From Bradymonas sediminis (lineage in GTDB: Bacteria > Myxococcota_A > Bradymonadia > Bradymonadales > Bradymonadaceae): a stretch of 64,000 nucleotides of DNA. The stretch lies in assembly GCF_003258315.1 (NCBI RefSeq), contig NZ_CP030032.1:3536501-3600500 (forward strand). Reading direction: 5' to 3'. Positions 4,895 through 9,709 of the stretch are shown one piece after another (position 1 is the stretch's first letter; the number at the start of each line of letters is the position of its first letter). Under the pieces are notes generated by a model. It was given only the letters and a program-made list of their open reading frames with translations, ran no database searches and was not told the origin of the DNA. The translations under genes were made by a program, and so were the position numbers.

Positions 4895-5058
4895 CTGAGC
4901 CTCCTCTTGGATATGATTGACTGGCCGTTGCGGCCGATGTTGAATAGAGAACGCACAACCCCAACAATAAAACCAATCATATCAAGGACTTAGAACCACA
5001 CCGCATCAAGGCTAAGCACCGGGAACGGGTGAACAAGGTGGGCCCAGGGCGGCGGCGC

Positions 5059-6072
5059 TTAGAAGGTGCCGAGGAGCGTCAGGCCCGGACGGGTGTCAAA
5101 GATGGTGGGGGAGACGGAGAAGACAAAGGCGGGCGGCTCATCCACGAGTTCCGGCAGGCCGACGGTCTCGACCGGGTCGGGCTCGCCCCAGCCGTAATGA
5201 AGAACGCGCGGAAGCACCCAGCCTGCCGCGACACCCATACCCCAACCGAGCAACATATCGGAGGGGTAGTGCTGCTCGCTGGCCACCCGGGCGAGGCCGT
5301 TTCCCACGGCGTTCACGATCATTAGGCCGCAGGCGATGTCGTCGGCGAGCCCGCCACCATAGAGGGGAAGATGCCCGTGGTGCAGACAGGTTAGGCCGGC
5401 CACAGCGGTGGCCGTGGCGGTATGCCCGGCGATGAAGCTGCGGGTGTATTCAACGTTTTCGGGGTCGCACAGGTGCCCCTCGCGCTGGGGGTCGGAGCAG
5501 TTGACGCCTGTTGGCCGCACTCGCCCGACAAATATCTGGGTCCCCCACTCCACCGCCGCCACCACCGCGAGCGACTCGAAGTCGATCCAGGACATCTTCC
5601 AGGCCACGTCCCAGCTATTGTCGTGCAAGAGTCCCGGTAGAAGCGCCGAATCCACCAGGCGATAGGCCATCGCCCCGTAGAAGCTCAGGTCGCTGGCCTT
5701 GCGAATATTTTCATTGGCGGGGTTTGAGCGCACGGCCAGGTGGTCGAGCACGCTCTGCTCAAAATCGGAGGTTCCGACCCAGTTGGCCGGCGGCGGGCGC
5801 ACCAAAAATCGGGCGCTGAACCCGCCAGCCATCAGCACCAGCGCGCTGGGGTATTCCCAGCTTCGGATGCCGCTCCATTCGTCTTTCCACACCAACTGCC
5901 GGGTGGCCAACGAGCCCTGGCGCGCCTCGGGTTCCGGTTCGGGCTCGGGCAATGGCAGCGGAGGCCGCGTTTTTGTCGGCGCATCACGCGCGGGCGATTG
6001 GGCCAACGCCGGCGCCGCGTTGGCGACACAGACCATCATCGGAATCAGCGCAACCAGGCGGGTCGGATTCAT
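5059..6072 (-). CDS. PAP2-superfamily phosphatase, exported
   Basis: Membrane or periplasmic phosphatase of the PAP2 superfamily (type 2 phosphatidic acid phosphatase / acid phosphatase). The three catalytic motifs are visible: V-GRVRP (motif 1, Lys/Arg-RP), SFIAGH (motif 2, P-S-G-H-like with IAGH) and RVASEQHYPSDM (motif 3, R-x5-H-x3-D). A signal peptide (MNPTRLVALIPMMVCVANAAPALAQ) is followed by a Pro/Glu-rich linker. The Met at 6072 was chosen because the signal peptide starts there; an in-frame Met 39 bases upstream would put a polar tail before it. The substrate could be a lipid phosphate or a soluble phosphoester. Confidence 0.82.
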   Translation of the reverse strand: MNPTRLVALIPMMVCVANAAPALAQSPARDAPTKTRPPLPLPEPEPEPEARQGSLATRQLVWKDEWSGIRSWEYPSALVLMAGGFSARFLVRPPPANWVGTSDFEQSVLDHLAVRSNPANENIRKASDLSFYGAMAYRLVDSALLPGLLHDNSWDVAWKMSWIDFESLAVVAAVEWGTQIFVGRVRPTGVNCSDPQREGHLCDPENVEYTRSFIAGHTATATAVAGLTCLHHGHLPLYGGGLADDIACGLMIVNAVGNGLARVASEQHYPSDMLLGWGMGVAAGWVLPRVLHYGWGEPDPVETVGLPELVDEPPAFVFSVSPTIFDTRPGLTLLGTF

Positions 6073-6287
6073 GGAGGGTCCAATCACAGGGCATTCAATA
6101 TACGTGGGCAAATGGTCATGCGGCCGGCCGGCGGCAACTGAATGCCCCCGACGATATCGCTCTCCCGGGCCTATTTTGGTCTTCTAAAACCATAGCCGCG
6201 TCGCTCCGGGCGGCAATCCCCGCGACCATCGCGCGTCAAAACAGCCGGACACACAACCTCATAACCTGTTGAAATAAAACGAAGAAC

Positions 6288-6315
6288 TTGACCCTCGACG
6301 CCCCGTCACCATAAT
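6288..6315 (+). promoter_or_regulatory. sigma70-like promoter of repeat RNA A
   Basis: TTGACC (6288-6293), a 16-bp spacer, then CATAAT (6310-6315). The same boxes with the same spacing recur at the head of the second repeat unit (6733-6760), although the spacer sequence has changed between them. Confidence 0.6.
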
Positions 6316-6321
6316 CAAATC

Positions 6322-6633
6322 TGTAGTCGCGATGGGACGCTCCGTTTTGGAATAGTCTCAAACCGAGTGGGTTCCAAAGAATCCGGACATGGCGTAATCA
6401 ACCATGGAAGGAAGCTCGTAGCTCTCACTCCATGCGGAAACGACGCGGACGCCTTCTGGCCCGCCAGCCAGAACCCGAAAGCGCACAGCCCGCATAAGTT
6501 TCTGACCGTAAATTCCGACGCAGATTGTCCACTTGAAATCTGGGCAACCGACGAAGGAGCAAAGGCCCGACGCAACTACGAAGAAGAGGCCCCGGTGCAG
6601 CGGCGAGAGCCAACGCATTGGGGTCTTTTTTTT
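6322..6633 (+). ncRNA. putative small RNA A (tandem copy 1)
   Basis: Predicted transcript of about 312 nt, running from just after the promoter at 6288-6315 to a U8 terminator ending at 6633. It is a diverged direct copy of the unit at 6767-7079. The best-kept core, 6428-6485, is 58 bp identical to 6871-6928 and contains a perfect 7-bp hairpin (6454-6460 with 6467-6473, loop CCGCCA). Small indels between the copies (for example near 6351 versus 6796, and near 6505) shift every reading frame, arguing against a protein. It does not match the signatures I know for tmRNA, RNase P RNA, 6S or SRP RNA. The transcript start is inferred from the -10 box. Confidence 0.55.
6588..6633 (+). terminator. 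terminator of RNA A
   Basis: An 11-bp stem (6588-6598 with 6615-6625, three G-U pairs) encloses a smaller GGC-GAGA-GCC hairpin and is followed by eight T (6626-6633). Confidence 0.8.
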
Positions 6634-6732
6634 GTCTCTCGGCTCTGCTTCTCTGAGCGCCCCGACCAAACGCTCCCTCGCGCGATACCCCGAAGGCAAA
6701 GACCCATAACCCACTGAAATCAAAAGAATAAC

Positions 6733-6760
6733 TTGACCATCACCGCCCCGTTACCATAAT
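6733..6760 (+). promoter_or_regulatory. sigma70-like promoter of repeat RNA B
   Basis: TTGACC (6733-6738), a 16-bp spacer, CATAAT (6755-6760), matching the promoter of copy A in box sequence and spacing. About 20 bp upstream is also similar between the copies (ACTGAAATCAAAAG versus GTTGAAATAAAACG). Confidence 0.6.
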
Positions 6761-6766
6761 CAAATT

Positions 6767-7079
6767 TGTAGTCGCGATGGGACGCTCCGTTTCGGAAAGT
6801 CTCAAACCGAGTGGGTTCTAAAGAGTCTGGACATGGCTTAAAAAACCATAAAAGAAACTCATAGCTCTTGCTCCATGCGGAAACGACGCGGACGCCTTCT
6901 GGCCCGCCAGCCAGAACCCGAAAGCGCATGGCCCGCATAGGTTTTTGACAAAATATTTCCGACGCCGATTGTTCACTTGAAACCTGAGCAGCCGACGAAG
7001 AAGCAACAAAACCCGACGTAACTACGAAGAAGAGACCCCGATGCAGCGGCGAGAGCCAATGCATTGGGGTCTTTTTTTT
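6767..7079 (+). ncRNA. putative small RNA B (tandem copy 2)
   Basis: Predicted transcript of about 313 nt, the second unit of the tandem pair. It keeps the promoter, the 58-bp identical core (6871-6928), the 7-bp hairpin (6897-6903 with 6910-6916) and the U8 terminator. Identity is high in the core and at the 3' end and lower between them. Total length differs from copy A by one base although there are several internal indels. It ends about 490 bp before the TetR-RND operon, on the same strand; whether it acts on that operon is unknown. Confidence 0.55.
7034..7079 (+). terminator. terminator of RNA B
   Basis: An 11-bp stem (7034-7044 with 7061-7071) encloses the same GGC-GAGA-GCC hairpin and is followed by eight T (7072-7079). 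Relative to copy A, two G-U pairs have become A-U pairs, so pairing is kept or improved. Confidence 0.82.
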
Positions 7080-7153
7080 GTGCACCATCGTCGAAAATCG
7101 TGCCCCCCCAGGATTAATTTGGTCCACTCATAAGTTGGAATGACCGACCCTAT

Positions 7154-7300
7154 GCGCGCCACAGGTGAACAACCCTTCACCAGCAGCAAACAAACATTAC
7201 CCAGTGGCGAAAGAATATTGACAGACGAATTCAAAGTCTCTATTACTCGCGTCAACTGAGCTTTCGCCACAGGTGAAAACTATTTCACCATCAGCGAAAG
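7154..7300. repeat. two hairpin repeats GGTGAA/TTCACC
   Basis: Two related palindromic units. Unit 1 has GGTGAA at 7164-7169 and TTCACC at 7176-7181. Unit 2 has GGTGAA at 7272-7277 and TTCACC at 7284-7289, with an outer arm TTTCGC (7262-7267) / GCGAAA (7294-7299). Both share the flank GCCACA before the stem. Separately, a perfect 10-bp inverted repeat GTGGCGAAAG (7204-7213) pairs with CTTTCGCCAC (7261-7270), linking the spacer to unit 2. The rest of 7080-7480 shows no convincing gene. Confidence 0.6.
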
Positions 7301-7483
7301 CATCGGCTCGAGCCTCTCGAGAAGACCTACGAAGGGCGATCGCAATGAAGGCTGGCGCAAATAGAACCGGCTCAGCTCCCAATTCACGGTATTCTGCGCC
7401 CATTTGAGCCCTCAAGGACTCCCATGACGCCTTCGACGAATCGACAAACGCTTAGGGGATGCTGATTAACCCCCAAAATATAC

Positions 7484-7506
7484 CCCATATGCCTGGATGG
7501 TATGGG
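7484..7506. promoter_or_regulatory. candidate operator of the TetR-RND operon
   Basis: Inverted repeat CCCATA (7484-7489) / TATGGG (7501-7506) with an 11-bp centre, about 65-90 bp upstream of the regulator gene. It is flanked by the direct repeat CCCAAAATA on both sides (about 7472 and 7508). Position and symmetry fit a TetR-type operator; assignment is inference. Confidence 0.35.
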
Positions 7507-7544
7507 ACCCAAAATAAGAATGCATCCAAGGAGCTTCAGCATGC

Positions 7545-7571
7545 ATGAAAATGAAAATCACCAGCTTTTAA
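7545..7571 (+). CDS. short leader ORF before the TetR gene
   Basis: Eight codons (MKMKITSF) preceded by a strong AAGGAG (7528-7533, 11 nt before the ATG). It ends in TAA directly abutting an ATG (TAAATG at 7569-7574) that is in frame with the TetR gene. This could couple translation of the regulator. The same AAGGAG also lies 7 nt before an ATG at 7541 in a different frame, so which start it serves is uncertain. Confidence 0.3.
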   Translation: MKMKITSF

Positions 7572-8237
7572 ATGACCTACACAAACGGGAAAAAAATGAC
7601 CCAACCCACGCGGCAGCGTCTCGGTCGCTCCGAGGCAAGGGAAATGATTCTCGAAGCGGCAGCGCGCGTCTTCAATCAGAAGGGACGCGCACTCACGGTC
7701 GAGGATATCGCTCAGGAAGCGGACTACTCGACCTCGGCGCTCTACAAACACTTCTCGAACAAAGAAGACATCCTTCACACCCTCTGGGTGCAGGTCGGCG
7801 AGCGCATGGCGGAGATCTTCCAGAGCGAGCCGCCGGTGGAGCTTCACTTCACGAAGAGACTGAAATGGACATTTTACGGCATGGCGAAGATGGCCGAGGA
7901 CACACGCGAGTTCTTCCTGGCCGGCATGGCGAACACGCCGATGGGCGCGGTGGGCTGCGAGATGGAGAGCGCGTATATGGACCACTATCGGACCATGCGC
8001 AGCTCGATGATCGCGCTGATGCAGCGCGGCATCGACGAGGGCGTGCTCAGGCCCAACCCGGCGGAGCTCTACTCGATGGCACTGGGCGGGCATCTGCACT
8101 CGGTGGTGATGCATTGGGCAATTCACGGCCCGTATCCGCTCAAGCCCAAAATCGACCAGTTGCTGGAGATCTTCCTAACCGGCGCCGCATGCGAAGAAGT
8201 GCGCAGCAGCATCTTGGCGCAGTCGCCGCGGCCCTGA
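7572..8237 (+). CDS. TetR/AcrR-family transcriptional regulator
   Basis: Likely local repressor of the efflux operon that it heads. The N-terminal TetR DNA-binding domain spans about residues 20-68: EAREMILEAAARVFNQKG, then the helix-turn-helix LTVEDIAQEADYSTSALYKHF and the typical SNKEDIL. The C-terminal ligand/dimer domain is all-helical and ends at about residue 215. Either the ATG at 7572 (coupled to a leader ORF stop) or the ATG at 7596 (GGGA 6 nt upstream) could be the start; the domain is complete with both. Its 3' end overlaps the tolC-like gene by 49 bp, so the two are co-transcribed. Confidence 0.92.
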   Translation: MTYTNGKKMTQPTRQRLGRSEAREMILEAAARVFNQKGRALTVEDIAQEADYSTSALYKHFSNKEDILHTLWVQVGERMAEIFQSEPPVELHFTKRLKWTFYGMAKMAEDTREFFLAGMANTPMGAVGCEMESAYMDHYRTMRSSMIALMQRGIDEGVLRPNPAELYSMALGGHLHSVVMHWAIHGPYPLKPKIDQLLEIFLTGAACEEVRSSILAQSPRP

Positions 8238-9709
8238 CGCTGCTTGCAGCGCCGGCGCTGGCGAGCGCTCAGGACGAGGCGGCCCAGGACGCCCCGGCCC
8301 AGGCAGGAGAAACAAAGGTTGTCGAGAGCCCCTCGCAGGCGGGTGGTCGCGAGTCCGCCCCGCTTGAGTCGGTCCCGCGCATCAGCCTCCAGGAGGCCCT
8401 GGACGTAGCCACGGGCAAGCACCCGAACCTCGAGCAGGCCCGCGCCGCGATGAAGGTCGCCGAGGCGAACCGCAAGAAAGCACGCGCCGGATTCGGCCCG
8501 ACGCTCTCCGCCGAGGCTTCCGCCCAACTGTGGAACGAAGAGCTCGCCTTCGACATCGGCATGGGCGGCGGCGACGCCCCCCAACTTCCGCCGCCGTCGA
8601 CGCCCTATGAGCAGATCATCGCCGGCATGTTCGCCGCCCCGGCCGAGCCGACCGTGATTCGCTCGCAATTTACCTGGAGCGCCTCGATCACCCTGGCCCA
8701 GCCGCTGACCCCCTTGTGGATGGTCTATCACGGGCATAAGGCGATGGTGATCGGCGAAGAAGTTGCGGAAAAGCAGCTCACTCAGGCCGAGCGTGACCTG
8801 GCCAACCAGGCCGCGGTCTCGTATTTCCGCCTGCTTCAGGTCCAGGCCTCGCTCGATACGGCCAATCAGTCGGTCGAGCGCCTCAACGCCCAGGTCAGCC
8901 AGCTCGAGGCATTGGTCGCCGCCGGCGCCGCTAAGAAAGCCGACAAGCTGCGCATCGAAGTTGCGGTGGCTGCGGCCAAACAAGAGGTCGCCAATTTAAA
9001 GGCCGCCATGCGCATCAGCCGCTCCGCGCTGGCGGTCGCGCTTGGTGCCGACCCCAGCGAGCCCATCGACGCCAGCCCGCTGGGCCAAGTCGATCTTCCC
9101 GACGTCTCCGGGTCCCCCGATGCCGCCGTGGAGGCCGCGCTCGACGCGCGCCCCGAGCTTCAGCAGCTCAAATTGCAGATGCAGCAGGCGGACCAGGCCA
9201 TCAAGGTTAAGCAGGGAAATTATATCCCGCAGGTCGTCGCCATGGCCCAATATTCGCACTCCGAAGGCCAGGGATTAGCCGGCAGCGACAGCGCATTTGT
9301 TGGGCTGGCCGCGAGCTGGGATATCTGGAAATGGGGCGCCGACTATTATGACGTCGACGCCGCGCGCGCCCAGCGCCTGCAGCTCGACTCCGCCTACACC
9401 CAGGCGCGTCGCCAGATTGGCCTGCAGGTGCGCAGCGCCTGGTATGACGTGCAATCGGCCGCCGAAGGCTATTCGGTCGCCACCAAGGCGGTCGCCCAGG
9501 CCGAGGAAGCCTATCGCATCGAGACCGTGCGCTACGAAGCCGGTGAGTCGACGCCCACCGATTTGCTCGCCGCGCAATCCGCGCTCACCGAAGCCCAGAA
9601 CAATCAAAATAACGCGCTTTATCAGACACTTATAAAGAATACCGAGTTCATCTACGCGACGGGTCGCCCGTTGACGGTCGAGAGCTTGCTCGAAGGAGTA
9701 AACCAATGA
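8189..9709 (+). CDS. TolC-family outer membrane efflux protein
   Basis: Outer-membrane channel of the tripartite pump. The 506-residue protein has a signal peptide (residues 1-28, MRRSAQQHLGAVAAALTLLA...ASA), a Glu/Ala-rich linker, and two OEP repeats. Repeat 1 begins ISLQEALDVATGKHPNLEQARAA and repeat 2 begins near DAAVEAALDARPELQQL. Long coiled helices such as ANQAAVSYFRLLQVQASLDTAN and QARRQIGLQVRSAWYDVQSA follow, with a final ESTPTDLLAAQSALTEAQNN motif. The start is the ATG at 8189, where the signal peptide begins. The frame stays open far upstream without codon-level support, through the regulator gene. The stop overlaps the next start as ATGA. Confidence 0.92.
   Translation: MRRSAQQHLGAVAAALTLLAAPALASAQDEAAQDAPAQAGETKVVESPSQAGGRESAPLESVPRISLQEALDVATGKHPNLEQARAAMKVAEANRKKARAGFGPTLSAEASAQLWNEELAFDIGMGGGDAPQLPPPSTPYEQIIAGMFAAPAEPTVIRSQFTWSASITLAQPLTPLWMVYHGHKAMVIGEEVAEKQLTQAERDLANQAAVSYFRLLQVQASLDTANQSVERLNAQVSQLEALVAAGAAKKADKLRIEVAVAAAKQEVANLKAAMRISRSALAVALGADPSEPIDASPLGQVDLPDVSGSPDAAVEAALDARPELQQLKLQMQQADQAIKVKQGNYIPQVVAMAQYSHSEGQGLAGSDSAFVGLAASWDIWKWGADYYDVDAARAQRLQLDSAYTQARRQIGLQVRSAWYDVQSAAEGYSVATKAVAQAEEAYRIETVRYEAGESTPTDLLAAQSALTEAQNNQNNALYQTLIKNTEFIYATGRPLTVESLLEGVNQ

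Follow-up and report, generated by a model that had tools for sequence, protein, structure and literature searches.

Tandem putative sibling small-RNA genes, apparently restricted to one lineage, in the predatory bacterium Bradymonas sediminis

The duplicated unit and its surroundings

The DNA analysed here (hereafter the window) is a stretch of 64,000 nt from the genome of the marine predator Bradymonas sediminis, in which positions 6288-7080 hold two direct copies of one promoter-to-terminator unit, both on the plus strand. To their left lies a PAP2-family phosphatase gene on the minus strand, with its start codon at or before 6111, and to their right a TetR-family regulator that begins at 7572 (both by Pfam). 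The tetR gene heads an efflux cluster composed of an outer-membrane channel (outer-membrane efflux protein, Pfam) as well as membrane-fusion and RND-type components, both recognized by reading the open reading frames (ORFs). The main parts of the two units are as follows.

6262-6287, plus strand: A-rich conserved stretch, UP-element-like, before promoter 1; agrees with copy 2 (6707-6732) in ~21 of 27 alignment columns
6288-6315, plus strand: promoter 1, TTGACC-N16-CATAAT (consensus scan)
6322-6634, plus strand: candidate RNA gene copy 1, ~313 nt, predicted start G6323; MFE −124 kcal/mol, z −4.7; duplicate of 6767-7080
6428-6485, plus strand: 58-nt core of copy 1, the same in both copies (alignment); contains hairpin 6450-6477
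6580-6634, plus strand: intrinsic terminator 1, a 19-pair stem with a GAGA-capped inner 3-pair stem and U8 at 6626-6633 (RNA folding)
6733-6760, plus strand: promoter 2, TTGACC-N16-CATAAT (consensus scan)
6767-7080, plus strand: candidate RNA gene copy 2, ~314 nt, predicted start G6768; MFE −111.6 kcal/mol, z −5.0
6871-6928, plus strand: 58-nt core of copy 2, identical to that of copy 1 (alignment); contains hairpin 6893-6920
7026-7080, plus strand: intrinsic terminator 2, a 19-pair stem with an inner 3-pair stem and U8 at 7072-7079 (RNA folding)

The copies align at 87-88% identity over ~390 nt (E about 1e-127), and their likeness starts upstream of the −35 box and ends at the T run, give or take a few bases. 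Relative to copy 1, copy 2 carries 33 substitutions and indels of −1, −1, +1, and +2 (five indel columns) and has a lower G+C content (0.51 vs 0.56), with 19 transitions from G/C to A/T against 7 in the opposite direction. The −35 and −10 hexamers are identical at 12 of 12 positions, while the N16 spacer between them keeps 12 of 16, i.e., four changes. A consensus scan of positions 5000-9000 listed these two promoters and no other site (0.7 expected in shuffles), and genome-wide, with up to three mismatches allowed, they were again the only sites of this type. Beyond the units the resemblance is lost: upstream of the A-rich stretch the copies are unrelated in sequence, and the spacer at 6637-6700 matches the sequence before copy 1 and after copy 2 no better than shuffles do. 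The unalignable spacer and flanks suggest that the two units were retained while their surroundings drifted; if the original duplication spanned the full 445-base period, the spacer would have drifted past recognition with both units kept.

Terminator 2 differs from terminator 1 by two G-U to A-U changes and breaks none of its pairs. Both hairpins are clear in RNA folding and neither was listed by a terminator scan, probably because the scan, which requires a loop of 3-8 and allows no internal loop, is unsuited to a hairpin of this form. The first-pass annotation of this DNA had described two diverged direct copies, each running from TTGACC-N16-CATAAT to a hairpin followed by eight T, with boxes and terminators kept in both and a 58-bp identical core. 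The alignment, the scan, and the folding bear this out, and its coordinates are correct to within a base; the copy lengths that it gave (312 and 313 nt) also stand within one base, our count being 313 (6322-6634) and 314 (6767-7080).

Coding potential and predicted RNA fold

The same annotation held that indels break every reading frame, as in duplicated RNA genes and not a protein gene. Coding potential was assessed in all six frames for each block between indels. No frame had significantly fewer amino-acid changes than randomly placed substitutions would give, the indels shift the frame, and no reading frame is common to the whole unit in both copies. Two sets of ORFs could nevertheless be read as a pair of small-protein genes. 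Within the core, a 22-codon ORF, MRKRRGRLLARQPEPESA[Q/W]PA, is open in both copies, and on the minus strand ORFs at 6358-6723 (121 aa) and 6720-7127 (135 aa) span most of both copies. Against the former, no ribosome-binding site was seen by inspection at a suitable distance before its ATG, and the core is also devoid of synonymous changes, which places the constraint at the nucleotide level. Across alignment columns 191-241 the two antisense ORFs do not share a frame, and they show no protein-level constraint. A coding gene was thus rejected on the frame-shifting indels and the lack of protein-level constraint in six frames, and we regard the small-protein explanation, in either form, as highly improbable.

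The RNAs are predicted to fold strongly. Folding energies of both full transcripts are lower than those of dinucleotide shuffles (z −4.7 in copy 1 and −5.0 in copy 2, with 0 of 100 shuffles as good), and the antisense strand of copy 1 gives a weaker value (z −3.0). Removing the terminator weakens the scores to −3.1 in copy 1 and −1.9 in copy 2 (8 of 200 shuffles as good), therefore part of the folding signal comes from the terminator, and the copy 2 domain on its own gains only modestly over shuffles. The strongest feature of the fold, absent from the first-pass annotation, is a closing helix that we call P1, listed here with the second conserved hairpin.

6323-6336, plus strand: P1 5′ strand of copy 1, pairing with 6566-6579; 12 pairs, probability 0.86-1.0
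6519-6553, plus strand: second conserved hairpin of copy 1 (folding); in copy 2 one of its C-G pairs is replaced by U-A, a compensatory change
6566-6579, plus strand: P1 3′ strand of copy 1, pairing with 6323-6336
6768-6781, plus strand: P1 5′ strand of copy 2, pairing with 7012-7025; 12 pairs
7012-7025, plus strand: P1 3′ strand of copy 2, pairing with 6768-6781

In both copies P1 (GUAGU-c-GCG-a-UGGG vs CCCG-a-CGY-a-ACUAC; 12 pairs at a probability of at least 0.83) joins the predicted first transcribed bases to the bases directly before the terminator, which makes each RNA a closed domain followed by a terminator. Twelve end-to-end pairs were reached by none of 600 shuffles of copy 1 and by one of 600 of copy 2. 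The copies have two stable hairpins in common inside the domain, at 6450-6477 and 6519-6553 in copy 1 numbering. The first, the core hairpin (6893-6920 in copy 2), has the form UUCUGGC-CCGCCA-GCCAGAA, and its seven loop-proximal pairs have a probability of at least 0.91 in both copies. The folds predicted for the remaining interior differ between the copies and should not be trusted. Conserved stretches that are single-stranded and accessible are few, being only the CCGCCA, CUUGAAA, and GAGA loops.

The substitutions that separate the copies fit a consensus fold better than randomly placed ones (0 of 400 as good). When they were shifted within 20 nt, 16 of 500 placements were as good for the domain and 4 of 500 for the terminator, and the test weakened further when they were moved by at most 10 nt (40 of 500). 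Covariation is minimal, as expected when only two sequences are available: both bases have changed in two pairs, a count that 125 of 500 shuffles equal. Taken with the coding tests and the limits of the unit, the folding results and the P1/terminator arrangement agree with the earlier view of duplicated RNA genes, and we consider it quite likely that these are two functional non-coding RNA genes.

Distribution of the pair and the adjacent tetR operon

In its own genome (one contig of 5,045,683 bases) the pair is present at one place only. DNA searches for relatives at the family and order levels found no homologue, and none was found in 57 Bradymonadia genomes, where the weak matches that were inspected contained no promoter-to-terminator unit and were mostly coding-looking. 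A covariance model, the check that had been proposed with the first description of the locus, was run in the class Bradymonadia and in 379 Myxococcota genomes and detected no relative in either. The same was true of a 21-nt core pattern searched against GTDB contigs and of plasmids and phages, while three matches in viral contigs all fell in coding-looking sequence and were rejected; the large searches among these ran with stricter filters, at which weak matches may be lost. Rfam gave no family match over the whole window. A second genome of the genus Bradymonas was not found in the collections searched. A contig search with the neighboring TetR returned only distant TetR proteins and no close relative sharing the neighborhood, and no similar sequence lay within 1.5 kb of the TetR relatives that other genera encode. 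As a side observation, the RNA model picks up both terminator hairpins on the minus strand as well, at 7025-7086 (31 bits) and 6579-6698 (18 bits), which is expected because they are near-symmetrical.

The pair therefore looks, from its sequence and these searches, like new, lineage-specific sibling small RNAs. The lack of any homologue elsewhere would also suit a non-functional, decaying duplicate or the remnant of a mobile repeat, as would the A/T-richer sequence of copy 2 with its excess of G/C-to-A/T transitions. Such an origin is improbable in our view, as the pair occupies a single genomic place, no IS or retron genes were seen nearby on reading the ORFs, and the promoter hexamers and terminator are preserved next to a spacer that can no longer be aligned.

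The position of the pair ahead of an operon raises a further explanation, in which the copies are tandem leader or attenuator elements (riboswitch-like) controlling tetR and the efflux genes. They lie on the strand of the operon, and promoter, structured domain, and terminator follow each other in series before the gene at 7572. The DNA between the second unit and tetR contains the following elements.

7164-7181: palindrome 1, 18 bp, GGTGAA-N6-TTCACC, upstream of the candidate promoter
7218-7246: candidate tetR-operon promoter, TTGACA-N17-TATTAC (promoter-like sequence)
7272-7289: palindrome 2, 18 bp, GGTGAA-N6-TTCACC, downstream of the candidate promoter

The palindromes belong to a wider repeat, CACAGGTGAA-N6-TTCACCANCAGC, whose two copies (7160-7187 and 7268-7295) flank TTGACA-N17-TATTAC; near TetR relatives of other genera the same palindrome was not found with the patterns tried. 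Both palindromes are likely operators of the adjacent TetR/efflux operon, which thus appears to have its own TetR-controlled promoter between two operators. This separate and seemingly autonomous promoter counts against a leader RNA, as do the promoter that each unit has of its own, the ~490 nt that separate the second terminator from tetR, and the absence, by inspection, of an alternative antiterminator pairing. Control of the operon by leaders is very unlikely.

Mode of action and comparison with known systems

Within one genome the locus presents related intergenic units that are non-coding by sequence and fold, each with a promoter and a Rho-independent terminator, as in sibling sRNAs. The best-supported reading is therefore a lineage-specific pair of tandem sibling sRNAs acting in trans, where both transcription and trans action are what we infer. 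Under this model, a whole unit, from promoter to terminator, would have been duplicated in tandem to give two paralogous non-coding RNA genes, independently transcribed. Each transcript (~313 nt) would start at the first base of P1 and form a multi-branched domain closed by P1, with the terminator directly after it. The identical core and the C-rich CCGCCA loop would then base-pair with target mRNAs, and P1 and the terminator would stabilize the RNA in a cell with no detectable Hfq or ProQ. Given the slight differences between the copies in promoter and 5′ half, having two of them may serve dosage or separate control.

Base pairing through the core and its CCGCCA loop is a tentative first choice, drawn by analogy with other sRNAs and placed ahead of protein binding. 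Loops of 6-7 nt without conservation offer no useful target specificity. The Hfq-binding class of base-pairing sRNAs was set aside, as the Pfam model for Hfq had no match in the host genome (positive controls were detected); ProQ was not found there either. These two absences, together with the length, closure, and high degree of structure of the RNAs and their few accessible conserved single-stranded stretches, would also agree with RNAs whose structure serves to bind a protein, making them a sponge or scaffold similar to CsrB, RsmY, or 6S, instead of base-pairing regulators. The host encodes CsrA in a single gene outside the window (G000:C1:4194255-4194410), and CsrB/CsrC-type sponges are similar in length to the present RNAs. 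GGA, however, occurs 8 times in copy 1 and 5 times in copy 2 (about 6 by chance) and is mostly paired, and copy 2 retains none of the ANGGA sites present in copy 1; unlike CsrB/CsrC, the pair has neither GGA enrichment nor conserved ANGGA loops, and a CsrA sponge of the CsrB/CsrC/RsmY type was rejected on these grounds. That Rfam found no 6S RNA in the genome would likewise agree with a protein-binding RNA, but the multi-branched domain is unlike 6S, which is a single bubble-bearing rod, and identity with 6S was rejected since RF00013 had no match over the locus at E up to 10, nor any in the genome. On this evidence we hold action through protein binding to be less likely than not. It is unlikely that the P1-closed branched domain defines a new class of large structured RNA in one genus of predatory bacteria, with a protein partner or an Hfq/ProQ-independent mechanism.

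Expression of the two units can be checked against public predation RNA-seq: B. sediminis FA350 has been sequenced with and without prey using a stranded library kit (PRJNA559243, PRJNA559253), and is one of three bradymonabacterial strains with complete genomes (FA350, V1718, and YN101) in a published set of 5.0-8.0 Mb (PMC7460792). Our literature search found no paper naming both small RNAs and Bradymonadales. If the sibling-sRNA reading is true, a pair of ~313-nt structured RNAs in a host without detectable Hfq or ProQ would be a tractable case, among predatory Myxococcota, of large-sRNA action and of the divergence that follows duplication.

Tandem sibling sRNAs are known from PrrF1/F2, OmrA/B, and AbcR1/2 (reviewed in PMC4211561), and in the same phylum from Cystobacter, where tandem pxr paralogs that are 14-23% divergent each have their own sigma-54 promoter, an Hfq homologue was not detected in those myxobacteria, and the Pxr fold has two or three stem-loops (PMC5568312). 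The present pair shares with Pxr the tandem paralogous arrangement, a similar degree of divergence between copies, the separate promoters, and a host lineage without detected Hfq. It differs in its sigma-70-like boxes and its closed, branched domain of ~313 nt, and it has no Rfam match of any kind, the comparison with Pxr being one of description and not of sequence. PrrF1/PrrF2 of Pseudomonas aeruginosa are likewise tandem, highly similar, and intergenic with intrinsic terminators, but the PrrF copies are 95% identical, under iron/Fur control, and yield a longer PrrH from the tandem (PMC4211561); no Fur box was noticed at the present locus. On these comparisons, the pair would be a case of the known tandem-sibling arrangement, but with a sequence, size, promoter type, and fold of its own. 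OmrA/OmrB of Escherichia coli, also tandem siblings, are 82-88 nt long and Hfq-interacting, with conserved ends and a diverged middle (PMC4211561), whereas here it is the central 58-nt core that is identical, plus most of the 5′ end and the terminator.
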